A stretch of DNA of 64,000 nucleotides, from assembly GCA_930633525.1 (NCBI GenBank), contig CAKNFP010000001.1, positions 310,001 through 374,000 on the forward strand, in the 5' to 3' direction. The notes beneath the pieces were generated by a model that was given only the letters and a program-made list of their open reading frames with translations, was not told the DNA's origin and did no database searches. This DNA is from Hyphomicrobiales bacterium. GTDB lineage: Bacteria; Pseudomonadota; Alphaproteobacteria; Rhizobiales; Beijerinckiaceae. Positions 16,225 through 34,626 of the stretch are shown one piece after another. The stretch's first letter is position 1, and every line of letters starts with the position of its first letter. The position numbers and the translations under genes were made by a program.

Positions 16225-16275
16225 CCCTTTACCTCTCCCTGTGGGAGAGGTCGCGCCGCAGGCGCGGGTGAGGGG
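16225..16275 (+). repeat. Palindromic element, family 1, copy A
   Basis: The element has two hairpins inside an outer stem: CCTCTCCC/GGGAGAGG, then CGCGCC/GGCGCG, bounded by CCCTTTAC and GTGAGGGG. The same architecture recurs at copies C and D beside the small endonuclease gene. Confidence 0.85.
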
Positions 16276-16292
16276 ACTTTATCGGTGGAGCT

Positions 16293-16330
16293 CCCCTCAT
16301 CCTGTCCTTCTCCCCGCCGGGGAGAAGGGA
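16293..16330 (+). repeat. Palindromic element, family 1 variant, copy B
   Basis: This is a shorter relative with a single strong hairpin CCTTCTCCCC/GGGGAGAAGG preceded by CCCCTCATCC. It lacks the second GC hairpin of copies A, C and D. Confidence 0.7.
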
Positions 16331-16377
16331 CGCCAACGATCGCCTGTCGCGTGTTGAAGCTTTCCGGTGAAGCGCCA

Positions 16378-16427
16378 CCCTTCACCTCTCCCTGAGGGAG
16401 AGGTCACGCCTCAGGCGTGGGTGAGGG
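16378..16427 (+). repeat. Palindromic element, family 1, copy C
   Basis: It has the same two-hairpin architecture as copy A, with compensating changes (CACGCC/GGCGTG) that keep the second stem paired. It ends exactly one base before the stop codon of the DUF559 gene. Confidence 0.88.
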
Positions 16428-16781
16428 TTACCATGTTCCCCGACGCTCCAGAGCGGCGAGAATGGTTTCGCGGACAAACTCCACGCTCTCATATATGTCC
16501 GCATTGCCGATCCGCAGCACCTCATAGCCGGCGGCCGTCAGAATGGCCTTGCGGTTTCGATCGTAAAATATCTCCGCGGCGGTTGAGTGGGTTGCACCAT
16601 CCACCTCGATGACGAGCTTCGCCTCGATGCAGGCAAAATCGACGATGAAGCGGTCGATGGGATGCTGGCGACGAAATTTGCGGCCATTCAGTTTGCGTTG
16701 GCGCAGAACGTGCCAAAGCTTTTCTTCCGGGGTGGTCTGATTTGCGCGCAGCTGCCGCGCCCGGACGATCGCCTTTCTCAT
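16428..16781 (-). CDS. DUF559 family endonuclease-fold protein
   Basis: This 117-residue protein matches the DUF559 family, which is related to very-short-patch-repair and other PD-(D/E)xK nucleases. It has TPEEKLWHVLRQRKLNGRKFRRQ, then HPIDRFIVDFACIEAKLVIEVDG, where D, E and VEVDG form the presumed metal site. HSTAAEIFYDRNRK and a YEVLRIGN strand follow. The family's biological role is not established. The gene is boxed between palindromic copies C and D in opposite orientation. Its stop touches copy C, and a GGGGGGAG ribosome site is formed at the edge of copy D. A second, divergent DUF559 gene lies at 32.8-33.3 kb in an analogous setting. Confidence 0.85.
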   Translation of the reverse strand: MRKAIVRARQLRANQTTPEEKLWHVLRQRKLNGRKFRRQHPIDRFIVDFACIEAKLVIEVDGATHSTAAEIFYDRNRKAILTAAGYEVLRIGNADIYESVEFVRETILAALERRGTW

Positions 16782-16793
16782 CGATGGATCTCC

Positions 16794-16841
16794 CCCCTTA
16801 CCCGCGCCTTCGGCGCGACCTCTCCCCGCCGGGGAGAGGTT
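16794..16841 (-). repeat. Palindromic element, family 1, copy D (inverted)
   Basis: On the minus strand this reads AACCTCTCCCC, a short loop, GGGGAGAGG, then CGCGCC/GGCGCG and GTAAGGGG. It is the same element as copy C in the other direction, so C and D are inverted repeats around the DUF559 gene. Confidence 0.85.
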
Positions 16842-16896
16842 AGACGGCTGTCCTCGTGACGGCTACCCTTTGCTCCAAGGCGAACGATGCCAGCCG

Positions 16897-16937
16897 CTCT
16901 CCCTCTCCCCAGCGGGGGAGAGGGCCGGGGTGAGGGG
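16897..16937 (+). repeat. Palindromic element, family 1 variant, copy E
   Basis: CCCTCTCCCC and GGGGGAGAGGG form one strong hairpin, followed by CCGGGGTGAGGGG. It resembles a family-1 element whose second hairpin has been lost. Confidence 0.7.
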
Positions 16938-29802: not shown

Positions 29803-31485
29803 TTAAGGGGCCGATGCTTGCGCCTTCTCGCGGATCGCCGTCAGCGTGGTTGTCGGCGTGATGACTTCCGGATCGAGGATGAGATGCAGGATCGCCGGCT
29901 TGCCTGAAGCCATGGCGCGGCTGAGTGCCGGAGCGAACTGCTCCGTCGTTTCCACCCGCTCGCCATAGCCGCCATAGGCGACGGCAAGGGCCGCGAAATC
30001 CGGGCTCTTCATCGAGGTGGCAGAGACGCGGCCGGGATATTCGCGCTCCTGATGCATGCGGATGGTGCCGTAGATCGCATTGTCGATGACGAGCACGATG
30101 ATCGGCAGGTCATATTGCACGGCGGTGGTGAATTCCTGGCCATGCATCAGGAAGCAGCCATCGCCCGCGAAGGACACGACGGTGCGCTCGGGATGGAGCT
30201 TCTTCACGCCCACCGCCGCCGGCAGGCCGTAGCCCATGGAGCCAGAGGTTGGCGCCGCCTGGGTGCCGTAGCGGCGGAAGCGGTGGAAGCGGTGCAGCCA
30301 GGTGGCGTAGTTGCCCGCGCCGTTGGTCATGATGGCATCGTCCGGCAGGACTTCCGCAAGATGCTGCATGATGGCGCCCATCTGCAAGGGGCCGACCGTC
30401 TTCACCCCAGTCGGGTCGCTCCAGGCGAGATAGTCCGCATGGGCTTGCGCTGTCCCGGCCGCCCAGGGCAGTTCCTTCGGCGGGGCGATGGCGTCGAGCG
30501 CCGCCGCGAATGCCGTCGGCGAGGCGTTGATGGCCAGCGCCGGCGCATAGACGCGGCCGAGCTCGCCCGCATCCGGATGAACGTGGACAAGTTCCGTGCC
30601 CGGGCCCGGAATGCCGAACAGGGTATAGCTCTGGCTCGGCACTTCCGAGAGGCGGCCGCCCACCATCAGCACGAGATCGGCGCTCTTGATGCGGGCGAGA
30701 AGCTTCGGATTGACGCCGAGGCCGAGATCGCCGGCATAGGACGCATGATCTGCCGGGAACAGCATCTGGCGCCGGAAGGAGCAGGCGACCGGCATGTTGA
30801 ACCGCTCGGCGAAGCGGGTGAAGCTTGCGACGGCTTCCTCCGACCAGCGGCTGCCCCCGACGATCGCGATGGGATTCCGCGCCGCCGACAGGCGCTTCTG
30901 GAGATCGGCCATCTGGGCCGGGGCAGGATGTGTCTCCACCGCCTCCACATAGGGCGCGTCGGCAACCTCGGCGATGGTCGTCAGCATGTTCTCGGGCAGG
31001 GCGATGACCACCGGGCCCGGCCGGCCGGACATCGCCACATGGAAGGCGCGTGAGATAATTTCCGGGATACGATCGGCGTCGTCGATCTCGGTCGCCCATT
31101 TGGCGATGGGGCCGAAAGCCGCACGGTAATCGACCTCCTGGAAGGCCTCGCGCTCCCGCATGCCGGTCTCGATCTGGCCGACGAACAGGATCATCGGCGT
31201 CGAATCCTGCTTGGCGATGTGGATGCCTGCCGAGGCGTTCGTGGCGCCGGGACCGCGTGTCACGAAGCAGATGCCCGGCCGGCCGGTGAGCTTGCCCTGC
31301 GCTTCCGCCATCATGGCGGCGCCGCCTTCCTGCCGGCACACCGTGACAGGGATCGCGGCGTCATGCAGCGCGTCGAGCACCGCGAGATAGCTCTCGCCGG
31401 GCACGCAGAAGATATGCTCGACACCCTGCTTCACGAGCTGGTCGACGAGGATCTGCCCGCCGGTCCGTGGCTTCAAAGTGGTCAT
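29803..31485 (-). CDS. TPP-dependent enzyme, acetolactate-synthase-like
   Basis: This 560-residue enzyme has the three-domain TPP fold. The N-terminal domain has the activating glutamate in CRQEGGAAMMAEA and the loop FVTRGPGATNA. The C-terminal cofactor motif is GDGCFLMHGQEF followed by VIDNAIYGTI, the GDG-N pattern. It differs from true acetolactate synthase in lacking a partner small subunit and in the surrounding residues, so the substrate is not clear. It overlaps the CoA-transferase gene by four bases (ATGA), which implies a joint function in the lysine/glutarate cluster. A 2-oxo-acid decarboxylase acting on 2-oxoadipate is one hypothesis; a carboligase or an unrelated role is possible. 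Confidence 0.75.
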   Translation of the reverse strand: MTTLKPRTGGQILVDQLVKQGVEHIFCVPGESYLAVLDALHDAAIPVTVCRQEGGAAMMAEAQGKLTGRPGICFVTRGPGATNASAGIHIAKQDSTPMILFVGQIETGMREREAFQEVDYRAAFGPIAKWATEIDDADRIPEIISRAFHVAMSGRPGPVVIALPENMLTTIAEVADAPYVEAVETHPAPAQMADLQKRLSAARNPIAIVGGSRWSEEAVASFTRFAERFNMPVACSFRRQMLFPADHASYAGDLGLGVNPKLLARIKSADLVLMVGGRLSEVPSQSYTLFGIPGPGTELVHVHPDAGELGRVYAPALAINASPTAFAAALDAIAPPKELPWAAGTAQAHADYLAWSDPTGVKTVGPLQMGAIMQHLAEVLPDDAIMTNGAGNYATWLHRFHRFRRYGTQAAPTSGSMGYGLPAAVGVKKLHPERTVVSFAGDGCFLMHGQEFTTAVQYDLPIIVLVIDNAIYGTIRMHQEREYPGRVSATSMKSPDFAALAVAYGGYGERVETTEQFAPALSRAMASGKPAILHLILDPEVITPTTTLTAIREKAQASAP

Positions 31486-32693
31486 GATTGGCCCCCCCAG
31501 TTCGGATCACGCAGGATCTCTTCGGTTTGCTCACCCACGGCAGGCGATGAACGGCGCGCCACCTGCGGCACACCATCGATGACAATCGGGGAGCGTACCG
31601 AGGGAATGCTGCCGCCGGCCGCCGCCGGGTTGGGCAGATCGACCTTCAGGCCGCGCGCCAGTACTTGCGGATCGGCGAAAACATCGGCCACCGTGTTGAT
31701 CGGTCCGGCCGGTACGCCTTGTGCTTCAAGACTGCCGAGAAGATCGGCGCGGCTGTGCTGCGCCGTGAGCTGGGCCAGGAGCGGGCAGAGCTGGTCGCGG
31801 TTGGCCACACGCGCCTTGTTGGTCGCATAGGCTTCCGCGTCAGCCAGCGCTGGGGCTCCGAGCACGGTGACGAATCGCCGGAACTGCCCGTCATTGCCGA
31901 CGGCGACGATGACGTGGCCATCCGAGACCGGGAAGACCTGATAAGGCACGATATTCGGATGGGCGTTGCCAAGGCGCTTTGGCGACACGCCGGAGACCAG
32001 GAAGTTCAACGACTGGTTGGCGAGCACGCTGACCTGCGTGTCGAGCAGCGCCATGTCCACCATGCCGCCGAGGCCCGTCGCGTCGCGGCGGCGCAGCGCG
32101 GCCATGATGCCGACGGTGGCATAGAGCCCGGTGAAGATATCCACATAGGCAACGCCGATCTTCATGGGTTCGCCGTCGGGCTCGCCCGTCAGATCCATGC
32201 TGCCGCCCATGCCCTGGATCAGGTAGTCATAGCCGGCGCGGGCGGCATAGGGACCGTCCTGGCCGAATCCGGTGACCGAGCAATAGATGAGCCGCGGATT
32301 GACAGCCTTCAGGCTCTCGTAGTCGAGGCCATATTTCTTGAGGCCGCCGACCTTGAAGTTCTCGATGAGCACATCGGCTTCCGCCGCGAGCCTGCGGATG
32401 AGCGCCTGGCCCTCCGGGCTCTCGAAATCAGCCGTGATGGAGCGCTTGCCGCGATTGGTGGCATGGAAATAGGCGGCCGAGAGGTCGCCGTCGCCATCCG
32501 CCTTGGCTACGAAAGGCGGCCCCCAGCTGCGCGTGTCGTCGCCGGCGCCCGGCCGCTCGACCTTGACGACATCGGCGCCGAGATCGGCCAGGAGCTGGCC
32601 CGACCACGGCCCGGCCAGGATCCGCGCGAGTTCGAGCACCTTGAGGCCGTGGAGAGGTTGAATTCCGCCGGTCTTGTCGTCAGTCGTACTCAT
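31482..32693 (-). CDS. CaiB/BaiF (class III) CoA-transferase
   Basis: This 403-residue class III CoA-transferase has the N-terminal pattern LKVLELARILAGPWSGQLLADLGADVVKVE. It also has FHATNRGKRSITADF and the predicted catalytic-Asp region SMDLTGEPDGEPMKIGVAYVD. Its setting next to glutaryl-CoA dehydrogenase suggests succinyl-CoA:glutarate CoA-transferase activity, as for the mammalian C7orf10 (SUGCT) type, but this is inference from context. It is coupled to the TPP enzyme by an ATGA overlap. A palindrome-bearing insert of about 740 bases separates it from gcdH. The ATG chosen follows GAGAAACA; an upstream extension would run into a repeat element. Confidence 0.85.
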   Translation of the reverse strand: MSTTDDKTGGIQPLHGLKVLELARILAGPWSGQLLADLGADVVKVERPGAGDDTRSWGPPFVAKADGDGDLSAAYFHATNRGKRSITADFESPEGQALIRRLAAEADVLIENFKVGGLKKYGLDYESLKAVNPRLIYCSVTGFGQDGPYAARAGYDYLIQGMGGSMDLTGEPDGEPMKIGVAYVDIFTGLYATVGIMAALRRRDATGLGGMVDMALLDTQVSVLANQSLNFLVSGVSPKRLGNAHPNIVPYQVFPVSDGHVIVAVGNDGQFRRFVTVLGAPALADAEAYATNKARVANRDQLCPLLAQLTAQHSRADLLGSLEAQGVPAGPINTVADVFADPQVLARGLKVDLPNPAAAGGSIPSVRSPIVIDGVPQVARRSSPAVGEQTEEILRDPNWGGQS

Positions 32694-32735
32694 TGTTTCT
32701 CTTTCGAGCCCTGCGATGTGGCCGGCGGCGGGGAA

Positions 32736-32790
32736 CCCCACCCGACCCGGCGCTGCGCGCCGGGCCACCCTCCCCTATAGGGGAGGGATC
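32736..32790 (+). repeat. Palindromic element, family 2, copy F
   Basis: The element begins CCCCACCCG, has hairpin CCCGGCGC/GCGCCGGG, then hairpin CCCTCCCC/GGGGAGGG, and ends GGATC. Copy H at 33.3 kb is nearly identical and in the same direction; copies G and I are inverted. Confidence 0.88.
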
Positions 32791-32796
32791 GGCGCT

Positions 32797-33348
32797 TTAT
32801 TCTCTAGCCTTGCGAATGGCATCCGTTTCATCACAAACGGTGCAGCTTGATGATCCCTCCCCCTTGGGGGAGGGTGGCGGCGAAGCCGACGGGTGGGGTC
32901 CACCCGCAGTCAAGGCCGAAAAGATCGTATCGAGGACAGCCCGTTTGTCGCGATCGACATCGTTATTGGTGAAACGCAACACGTGGAAACCGAGGGCTGC
33001 GAGTTTGGAGTCACGGATCCGATCGGCTGTATGATCGTCGAAACCATGCTGGATACCATCGATCTCGACGACAAGGCTGCGCTTGAGACAGGCGAAGTCG
33101 ACGACGTAGCGATCGATGGCGACCTGCCGGCGGAAATGAAAGCCCGCCGGCACGATCTCCTCACGCAGCCAGTTCCAGACCTTGACCTCCTGCGGGGTCA
33201 TCTGCTGGCGCAGCTTGCGTGGAAGGGCTGTGGAGAGACGCGAACGACTTTGGCGGCGGGGGACCCCACCCGACCCGGCGCTGCGCGCCGGGCCACCCTC
33301 CCCTTCAGGGGAGGGATCAAGGGTGCCTCGCTCGTCAGCTGCGCTCAT
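32797..33348 (-). CDS. DUF559 family endonuclease-fold protein, ends built from repeats
   Basis: The open frame is 183 residues. The DUF559 core runs from about residue 36 to 150: PRKLRQQMTPQEVKVWNWLR, then FHFRRQVAIDRYVVDFACL and the presumed metal-site strand LVVEIDGIQHGFDD. A FHVLRFTNND strand follows. This resembles the 117-residue DUF559 protein at 16.4 kb, but the two are clearly diverged. About 35 N-terminal residues are translated from palindromic copy H, and about 35 C-terminal residues (GGPHPSASPPPSP onward) from copy G and its flank. The true start is uncertain because the annotated ATG lies beyond copy H. The gene interrupts an operon of lysine/glutarate catabolism. Confidence 0.78.
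   Translation of the reverse strand: MSAADERGTLDPSPEGEGGPARSAGSGGVPRRQSRSRLSTALPRKLRQQMTPQEVKVWNWLREEIVPAGFHFRRQVAIDRYVVDFACLKRSLVVEIDGIQHGFDDHTADRIRDSKLAALGFHVLRFTNNDVDRDKRAVLDTIFSALTAGGPHPSASPPPSPKGEGSSSCTVCDETDAIRKARE
32852..32898 (-). repeat. Palindromic element, family 2, copy G (inverted)
   Basis: On the minus strand it reads CCCCACCCG, a short hairpin CGGC/GCCG, then CCCTCCCCC and GGGGGAGGGATC. It lies inside the 3' end of the DUF559 frame and faces copy H on the other side. Confidence 0.85.
33264..33318 (+). repeat. Palindromic element, family 2, copy H
   Basis: It is almost identical to copy F (only the loop between CCCTCCCC and GGGGAGGG differs, TTCA instead of TATA). It lies inside the 5' part of the DUF559 frame and forms, with copy G, inverted repeats around the nuclease core. 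Confidence 0.88.
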
Positions 33349-33377
33349 CGCATCGCCGTGCCCAGCCTAGCTCGGAT

Positions 33378-33424
33378 GATCCCTCCCCCTTGGGGGAGGG
33401 TGGCGGCGTAGCCGCCGGGTGGGG
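33378..33424 (-). repeat. Palindromic element, family 2, copy I (inverted)
   Basis: It is almost identical to copy G and in the same direction, ending 11 bases before the gcdH stop codon. The order along the region is F(+), G(-), nuclease core, H(+), I(-). Confidence 0.86.
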
Positions 33425-33435
33425 TCCGAAGGTGC

Positions 33436-34626
33436 TCAGAAGAACGCCTGGATACCCGTCTGGGCGCGCCCGAGGATGAGGGCGTGCACGTCGTGGGTGC
33501 CCTCATAGGTGTTGACCGTCTCCAGGTTCTGCGCGTGGCGCATCACGTGGAATTCTTCCTGGATGCCGTTGCCGCCGTGCATGTCACGGGCGACGCGGGC
33601 GATGTCGAGCGCCTTGCCGCAGTTGTTGCGCTTGACGAGGGAGATCATCTCCGGCGCCATGCGGCCCTCGTCGAACAGGCGGCCGACGCGCAGCGAGCCC
33701 TGCAGGCCGAGGGCGATTTCGGTCTGCATGTCGGCGAGTTTCTTCTGGACGAGCTGGGTGGCGGCCAGCGGCCGGCCGAACTGCTTGCGGTCCAGTGTGT
33801 ACTGGCGGGCGCGATGCCAGCAGTCCTCGGCGGCGCCGAGCACACCCCAGGAGATGCCGTAGCGGGCGCGGTTGAGGCAGCCGAACGGCCCCTTCAGGCC
33901 GGAGACGTTCGGCAGAAGCGCGGTTTCCGGAACCTCGACGCCGTCCATGACGATCTCGCCGGTGATGGAGGCGCGCAGTGACAGCTTGCCGCCGATCTTC
34001 GGAGCGCTGAGGCCCTTCAGGCCCTTTTCCAGCACGAAGCCGCGGATCGCGCCGTCATGGGCGGCCGACTTCGCCCAGACCACGAAGACATCGGCGATCG
34101 GCGAGTTGGAAATCCACATCTTTGTGCCGATCAGGCGGTAGCCGCCGTCGATCTTTTCGGCGCGGGTCGTCATGCCGCCCGGATCGGAGCCGGCATCCGG
34201 CTCGGTCAGGCCGAAGCAGCCGACCCACTCGCCCGAGGCGAGCTTGGGCAGGTAGCGCTTGCGCTGCTCCTCGGAGCCATAGGCATAGATCGGGTACATT
34301 ACGAGCGAGGACTGCACGCTCATCATGGAGCGATAGCCGGAATCGACGCGCTCCACCTCGCGGGCCACGAGCCCATAGGACACGTAGGACGCGGCCGCGC
34401 AGCCATATTCCTCCGGTAGGGTCACGCCGAGCAGGCCGAGCTCGCCCATCTCGTTGAAGATCTCGCGGTCGGTCTTCTCATGGGCATAGGCCTCCAGCAC
34501 GCGCGGCTGGAGCTTATCCTGCGCATAGGCATGGGCCGTGTCGCGGATCATCCGCTCGTCGTCGGTCAGCTGGCTCTCGATCAGGAACGGATCGGCCCAG
34601 TCGAAGGAGCCCTTCTTGTCGCTCAT
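33436..34626 (-). CDS. gcdH: Glutaryl-CoA dehydrogenase
   Basis: This 396-residue flavoprotein of the acyl-CoA dehydrogenase family oxidises and decarboxylates glutaryl-CoA to crotonyl-CoA. Signatures seen are [15 protein letters not shown] with the flavin contact, [10 protein letters not shown], and the catalytic base region [16 protein letters not shown]. The N-terminal [20 protein letters not shown] pattern is specific to the GCDH subfamily. It follows the aldehyde dehydrogenase by about 50 bases and precedes the CoA-transferase on the same strand, so all three act on the C6/C5 intermediates of lysine breakdown. Confidence 0.93.

Follow-up and report, generated by a model that had tools for sequence, protein, structure and literature searches.

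We investigated the region between gcdH, which encodes an acyl-CoA dehydrogenase, and a CoA-transferase gene in the window, i.e. the whole 64-kb stretch of DNA analysed here (Table 1). The region 32724-33427 consists of one palindrome in four copies, named F, G, H and I, placed around a gene of the DUF559 family. Across 67 nt, F (32724-32790) shows 96% identity to H (33252-33318), and G (32849-32901) shows 96% identity to I (33375-33427) across 53 nt, the orientation of F and H being opposite to that of G and I; these near-exact matches had been described in an earlier reading made from the letters alone (the sequence-only reading). Each copy presents the layout GATC, CCCTCCCC-loop-GGGGAGGG, TGGC, a second self-complementary stem and a GGGTGGGG tail. 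Folded as single-stranded DNA, all four form two hairpins (folding z-scores -1.8 to -4.1). The second stem defines two subtypes, short in y (G, I) and long in z (F, H), and the order is F(z,-) G(y,+) DUF559 H(z,-) I(y,+), which corresponds to I-H, nuclease, G-F in the direction of the gene. By eye, homology between the I-H spacer and the G-F spacer is apparent in the relatives G001 and G003 and less clear in the window, and the flank was therefore probably duplicated as a unit.

Table 1 Features of the locus and of the second DUF559 gene in the window.
Feature	Position	Strand	Remarks
CoA-transferase	31482..32693	-	downstream operon partner, 403 aa from ATG
Palindrome F	32730..32790	-	z subtype (long stem 2), tail directed away from the nuclease; two hairpins
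DUF559 open frame	32797..33348	-	183 aa; starts at an ATG upstream of H and extends through H and G
Palindrome G	32852..32901	+	y subtype (short stem 2), tail into the nuclease gene; contributes to the encoded C-terminal tail
Putative minimal unit GATCCC...(G)-DUF559-(H)...GGGATC	32852..33318	.	467 bp; ends and orientation as in the gene-less doublets
DUF559 (PF04480) domain	32911..33228	-	profile match 1.6e-31, over the curated cut-off
Palindrome H	33258..33318	-	z subtype, tail into the nuclease gene; read as N-terminal extension
Palindrome I	33378..33427	+	y subtype, tail directed away from the nuclease
gcdH (acyl-CoA dehydrogenase)	33436..34626	-	upstream operon partner
Other DUF559 gene of the window	16428..16781	-	profile match 1.5e-34
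Palindromes around the other DUF559 gene	16232..16923	.	16232-16250, 16306-16328, 16385-16403, 16819-16839, 16897-16922

Several further features of these palindromes were observed. At the loci L036 and L038, H carries an extra palindromic stretch of about 60 bp in the loop of its first stem, which is in frame in the protein; in L038 this stretch of about 60 bp is present in both F and H, which suggests duplication or gene conversion between the two. The longest frame of the CoA-transferase has its GTG start inside F (window 32694-32768, minus strand), and automatic start calls may therefore be overextended there. A known RNA family was rejected as the identity of the palindromes, as no Rfam match reached the gathering score. 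Weak matches to the whalefall-1 RNA over the full model length were obtained at 32853-32900 and 33379-33426 (plus strand), with 16.5 and 19.3 bits, below the gathering score of 37, and a comparison of that family with the palindromes may be worthwhile.

The open frame within 32852-33318 is that of DUF559, the precomputed Pfam domains of its protein being PF04480 and PF18741 only. PF18741 is the second precomputed domain beside PF04480 on the same short protein (P0001) and on most of its listed homologues. Six residues, D84, E95, D97, H101, D109 and R112, are invariant among 55 aligned homologues, and we take them to be catalytic-type residues. The AlphaFold model shows block means of 91-98 over most of residues 41-150 (71-87 for residues 91-110) and of 51-62 at residues 1-30 and 151-183, and the repeat-encoded ends of the protein are thus predicted to be disordered. 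The best solved fold is 3hrl (E 1.4e-6), which is also the top sequence match (2.1e-13), followed by the homing endonuclease I-Bth0305I (2.7e-5); the match to the Vsr fold is weaker (1cw0, E 0.025) and ranks after several mitoribosomal chains. A role as a defence system was rejected, its sole lead being a weak DpdF profile match (6e-5).

Both ends of the frame are encoded by the repeats, in agreement with the sequence-only reading, which had proposed that either the repeats were co-opted as coding sequence or the frame was overextended; the data point to a third possibility. By eye, no in-frame ATG, GTG or TTG is found in the window between H and the conserved first helix, and indels in H, among them an insertion of 20 codons in two genomes, leave the four orthologues in frame; therefore the frame is probably translated through H, as judged from the reading frames. 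Among the four orthologues, the codon positions of the core exhibit the expected third-position excess (0.225 vs 0.087 and 0.054). In the raw differences, and with small counts, this excess is absent from both the N extension (0.103, 0.165 and 0.156 by codon position, 243 codon pairs) and the C extension (0.158, 0.061 and 0.152, 165 codon pairs). Repeat-type C-tails, detected by a regular expression, are present in 76 and missing from 44 of the 120 listed homologues of this protein, a set that may be enriched for tails as the query included one, and are found in 0/120 listed homologues of the other DUF559 protein of the window. Repeat ends selected as protein are thus unsupported both by the codon-position differences and by the homologues (76/120 vs 0/120), and the ends encoded by H and G look tolerated, not co-opted. 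For annotation this is a warning that proteins labelled 'very-short-patch-repair endonucleases' may carry repeat-encoded tails without a function.

The source genome was assigned to Chelatococcus by how its close homologues are named. The gcdH orthologues of the other three Chelatococcus genomes present 97.7-98.7% identity, and in the four Chelatococcus genomes searched the gap between gcdH and the CoA-transferase measures 742-885 bp and contains the nuclease and the palindromes in all. The gcdH search gave 45 matches in 60 genomes, 42 of them outside the genus, and 30 were fetched for the locus comparison, i.e. three from Chelatococcus and 27 from other genera of the family, the remaining 15 matches being left out. 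At all 27 loci, the search over about 1.5 kb gave no DUF559 match, and the palindrome pattern matches at two of them only. The CoA-transferase lies downstream of gcdH in 17/27, at a distance of -25 to 155 bp in 12 and further away in five, and was not found within the fetched stretch in the other 10. The adjacency in 12/27 loci bears out the claim that the block splits a gcdH-CoA-transferase pair. The empty site that the sequence-only reading had advised looking for is thus present in sister genera and was not encountered within the genus, where 4/4 searched genomes are occupied. A second pair of occupied and empty sites was observed within another genus, with 452 bp and a DUF559 unit in G072 vs 56 bp in G186 between the same flanks; the L078/G126 comparison, in which one flank only was found, was left out. 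By eye there is no clean target-site duplication at the ends, where the GATC is itself palindromic and ambiguous, and no recent identical insertions were found. Four relatives (L042, L059, L061, L062) carry in the same gap repeat-like palindromes that look quite different by eye, and the site may therefore attract repeats of several families.

The existence of both occupied and empty alleles, together with I-Bth0305I as the second-best solved fold, would be consistent with a homing-type mobility, in which intergenic alleles that lack palindromes are cut by the nuclease and gene conversion copies it in, with the palindromes as a boundary or a target and not as elements moved in trans. We consider this unlikely, as by itself it gives no account of the many palindromes found away from the nuclease gene in DUF559-bearing genomes, nor of the inward-facing y/z doublets with the same ends that are described below.

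The strict palindrome is present in 25 copies in the 7.16-Mb source genome, four of them at this locus (reversed-pattern control, 0). The 21 copies away from this gene comprise 12 in six doublets less than 200 bp apart and nine single copies. All six doublets consist of one y and one z copy that face inward, with GATCCC...GGGATC ends, an arrangement which is that of G-DUF559-H minus the gene; two z copies of the doublets have damaged tails (L022, L026). The loose pattern matches at 127 places in the genome. Within the window it matches at eight, four at each of the two DUF559 genes and none elsewhere; palindromes are therefore not a feature of most intergenic gaps, which the sequence-only reading had named as the finding that would undo its proposal. 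The origin of the palindromes by chance was ruled out by the reversed-pattern controls.

The genome contains three DUF559 genes, and palindromes adjoin all three. The palindromes of the window's other DUF559 gene form a sister family with the architecture common to F, G, H and I, i.e. a stem with a pyrimidine arm and a purine arm, a second stem and a GGGTGRGG-type tail. The window had been described as holding two unrelated palindrome families; they are instead variants of one architecture, F, G, H and I being one family with two subtypes. At the third DUF559 gene (L002, about 1310-1470), two palindromes lie upstream, none was seen downstream, and the second stem is absent by eye; from its letters, this arrangement looks like a one-sided variant.

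The same association was observed around DUF559 genes of other genomes. Among 30 alphaproteobacterial loci, taken as the best-scoring one per genome and not at random, 24 have a pattern match no further than 300 bp away and a 25th has one at 1116 bp, against none with the reversed control. In the scan of named genomes, restricted to the best 80 of 125 relatives, a palindrome lies within 300 bp in 68 loci and on both sides in 52, and the density falls from 7.4 palindromes per kb at 0-100 bp to 0.045 at 2-4 kb (reversed control, 0). In 28 further best-scoring loci from the phylum search, the loose pattern detects a palindrome within 300 bp in 18, and a looser hairpin rule in 28/28. By this rule, at least one palindrome is present in 149 of 161 loci, and on both sides in 103, in a set whose members are not all independent, at least two pairs (L089/L104, L082/L112) being the same place; the reversed-arm control gave 2/80 loci.

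The direction and the resemblance of the flanks were determined on 110 loci, L077, L079 and L141 being left out as they lie at contig ends. The tails point inward in 130 flanks, outward in 15 and both ways in one, and no tail was found in 28. Among the 74 loci with two flanks, 23 have the partner flank as the best match of all and 35 have it in the top three. In five multi-copy genomes, flanks of the same locus have a median score of 61 (n=17) vs 17 for flanks of different loci (n=72, p=4e-8), and the similarity of the nucleases tracks that of the flanks (Spearman 0.66 over 44 non-independent pairs). In G070, where eight of the ten DUF559 matches were read, one palindrome family is common to L097/L099 and L102/L103, and other genes have their own family.

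To compare whole genomes, a full DUF559 gene was defined by a best E<1e-20, which is present in 46 of 192 alphaproteobacterial genomes. At least five loose-pattern palindromes are found in 40/46 genomes with the gene vs 11/146 without (Fisher 9e-25, odds ratio 82), and the reversed control is not significant (3/46 vs 3/146, p=0.15). The result is stable at palindrome thresholds of 3, 10 and 20. Its direction agrees in 16 of the 17 families that have both states, with same-genus examples of 43 vs 1, 46 vs 0 and 11 vs 1 palindromes, and gene number correlates with palindrome number among the alphaproteobacterial DUF559 genomes (Spearman 0.50). In the same way, in a second set without overlap with the first, i.e. 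the 211 non-alphaproteobacterial Pseudomonadota among 348 genomes, 28/34 genomes with DUF559 vs 18/177 without have at least five palindromes (Fisher 3e-17; reversed control, 3/34 vs 18/177); the within-family comparison outside the alphaproteobacteria, with 7 up and 2 down, is not significant (p=0.18). These are plain counts over genomes. With their controls, the local and the genome-wide association support the view that the link between DUF559 genes and palindromes is not chance, as had been suggested from the two genes of the window.

Exceptions exist in both directions. At least five palindromes without full DUF559 are found in 11/146 alphaproteobacterial genomes and 18/177 others, and DUF559 with fewer than five palindromes in 6/46 and 6/34, respectively. 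Four genomes, G080 (47 palindromes), G401 (90), G471 (160, with a weak DUF559 match) and G294, hold 47 to 160 palindromes without full DUF559, for which nuclease loss or another driver are candidates. Weak DUF559 matches also occur in long open frames, which are perhaps unrelated proteins.

The palindrome-rich genomes without full DUF559, and the fact that no strand-transfer domain was seen in the unit, raise the question of a passenger, i.e. of another transposase or a host process moving the palindromes, with DUF559 as cargo between two of them. The RAYT-type transposase domain, Y1_Tnp, is present in 44/192 alphaproteobacterial genomes and is not significantly coupled to the palindromes in the 192 (13/44 vs 38/148, p=0.70). 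Its weaker, RAYT-like matches lean to palindrome-rich genomes in the same direction as DUF559 (12/29 vs 39/163, odds ratio 2.2, p=0.067). RAYT was rejected as the driver on all Y1_Tnp matches, with this leaning of the weaker-matching subset. In genomes of at least 3 Mb, the effect of DUF559 is observed both with Y1_Tnp (12/14 vs 1/12) and without it (23/25 vs 4/41). Considering the overall lack of correlation with Y1_Tnp, the resemblance of the two flanks and their divergence with the nuclease, and the coupling in two non-overlapping genome sets, a passenger nuclease appears improbable.

A cellular role was also considered, in which the palindromes would be address sites for a resident Vsr-like nuclease of repair or chromosome maintenance, the flanking copies regulating the nuclease. 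VsrA of Caulobacter is described as a DUF559-domain protein that cells without the methyltransferase ScmA need for their SOS response (PMC12907096), and the four loci with the title Caulobacter sp. in the set of the best 80 of 125 have palindromes on both sides by eye. The presence of DUF559 is, however, patchy within genera, and a genome may hold several copies, often each with its own palindrome family, which makes such a role very unlikely.

The data taken together favour, with moderate confidence, a minimal REPtron-like selfish unit, in which a DUF559 nuclease of the Vsr/EDxHD type lies between inward-pointing palindromes and is spread by the nuclease and repair. A single-domain PD-(D/E)XK nuclease between two inward copies of its own hairpin-plus-tail palindrome would constitute such a small unit. 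The nuclease would recognise an intergenic target and/or its cognate palindrome, the latter as a duplex or as an extruded hairpin, and would nick or cut the DNA, after which repair would place copies of the unit at new sites between genes; as a nuclease alone has no strand-transfer activity, the host's repair would be required for insertion. The gene-less inverted doublets with the same ends may have been moved in trans, by which the genome would have been seeded with repeats. At the present locus, the entry of one unit into the gcdH-CoA-transferase gap would predate the split of the four Chelatococcus lineages sampled, and the four palindromes would result from the duplication of one flanking palindrome-spacer-palindrome unit (I-H and G-F). 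Translation would start upstream of H, H and G adding disordered and apparently unselected tails.

The spread of bacterial intergenic palindromes is poorly settled. DUF559 genes and palindromes tend to co-occur in the compared Pseudomonadota genomes, which suggests that the repeats may owe their spread to the enzyme. With a nuclease family whose presence follows one large class of palindromes from genome to genome, there is now a specific enzyme to be tested in relation to that class. It is conceivable, and we propose it tentatively, that DUF559 represents another enzyme-repeat partnership beside RAYT-REP, in the form of nuclease-driven hairpin elements that would move in the absence of a transposase and would be one main source of CCYTCYCC-type intergenic palindromes in Pseudomonadota. 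The association may also give an unexpected context to the VsrA-dependent DNA damage in Caulobacter.

The papers listed in a literature search that covered journal articles, few of them from subscription journals, showed no link between DUF559 and palindromic repeats; both terms, DUF559 and 'palindromic', occur in two of these papers (PMC8861277, PMC9454445). The unit differs from a classical insertion sequence, as by the precomputed Pfam domains of its protein it presents no DDE or serine/tyrosine transposase within terminal inverted repeats. The CIR elements of Caulobacter and Brucella are described as intergenic elements of about 110 bp with two inverted-repeat arms and GANTC sites (PMC2229807); they are, like the repeats here, intergenic alphaproteobacterial two-arm repeats, the comparison being by description only. 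CGTC REPs are common in alphaproteobacteria and, according to the authors, apparently lack a dedicated transposase (PMC3733652); these palindromes are common in the same class, but by eye no CGTC tag is present on the four palindromes here. In the Rickettsia palindromic elements and the enterobacterial RU elements, repeats are read in frame and fused to assorted genes (PMC2229807, PMC2759123). Here too the repeats are read in frame as protein, but they flank and extend one nuclease gene, with which they are repeatedly found together.

The EDxHD homing endonucleases, with I-Bth0305I (PDB 3r3p), are alike in the predicted core fold and in the presence of the gene vs empty alleles. In contrast to I-Bth0305I, the gene here stands by itself in the gap between two genes and is bordered by terminal palindromes, and gene-less copies of these palindromes are present in the genome. 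Vsr is a mismatch-repair endonuclease characterised by nicking at T:G mismatches and by its link to a cytosine methyltransferase. Vsr and VsrA have the fold family in common with the nuclease of the unit, here by the fold match only (1cw0), and the string 'palindrom' has 0 matches in the main text of the VsrA paper (PMC12907096).

The closest likeness is to REPtrons, described as RAYT (Y1 HUH transposase) genes between GTAG REPs, and to REPINs (PMC3733652, PMC3116915). REPtrons likewise present a small gene between palindromes, with repeats near the gene (PMC3733652, PMC3116915), and they too are described as having several families of repeats in one genome, a separate gene for each family, and gene-less inverted doublets. 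Here, the enzyme gene lies between cognate palindromes, cognate meaning sequence resemblance only, and the strict-pattern doublets are inverted in 6/6 cases, nine copies being single. The enzyme, however, is a PD-(D/E)XK DUF559 nuclease and not a Y1 transposase, and no Y1_Tnp (PF01797) match was found in the source genome (G000). By eye, the hairpin carries a GGGTGRGG tail in contrast to the GTAG tag of REPs, and GTAG is absent next to the stem in the four palindromes and in the strict copies shown. Therefore, lacking the Y1 transposase and the GTAG tag, the DUF559 unit is REPtron-like in its anatomy, flank matching and copy-number coupling, but it is not a member of the REPtrons.
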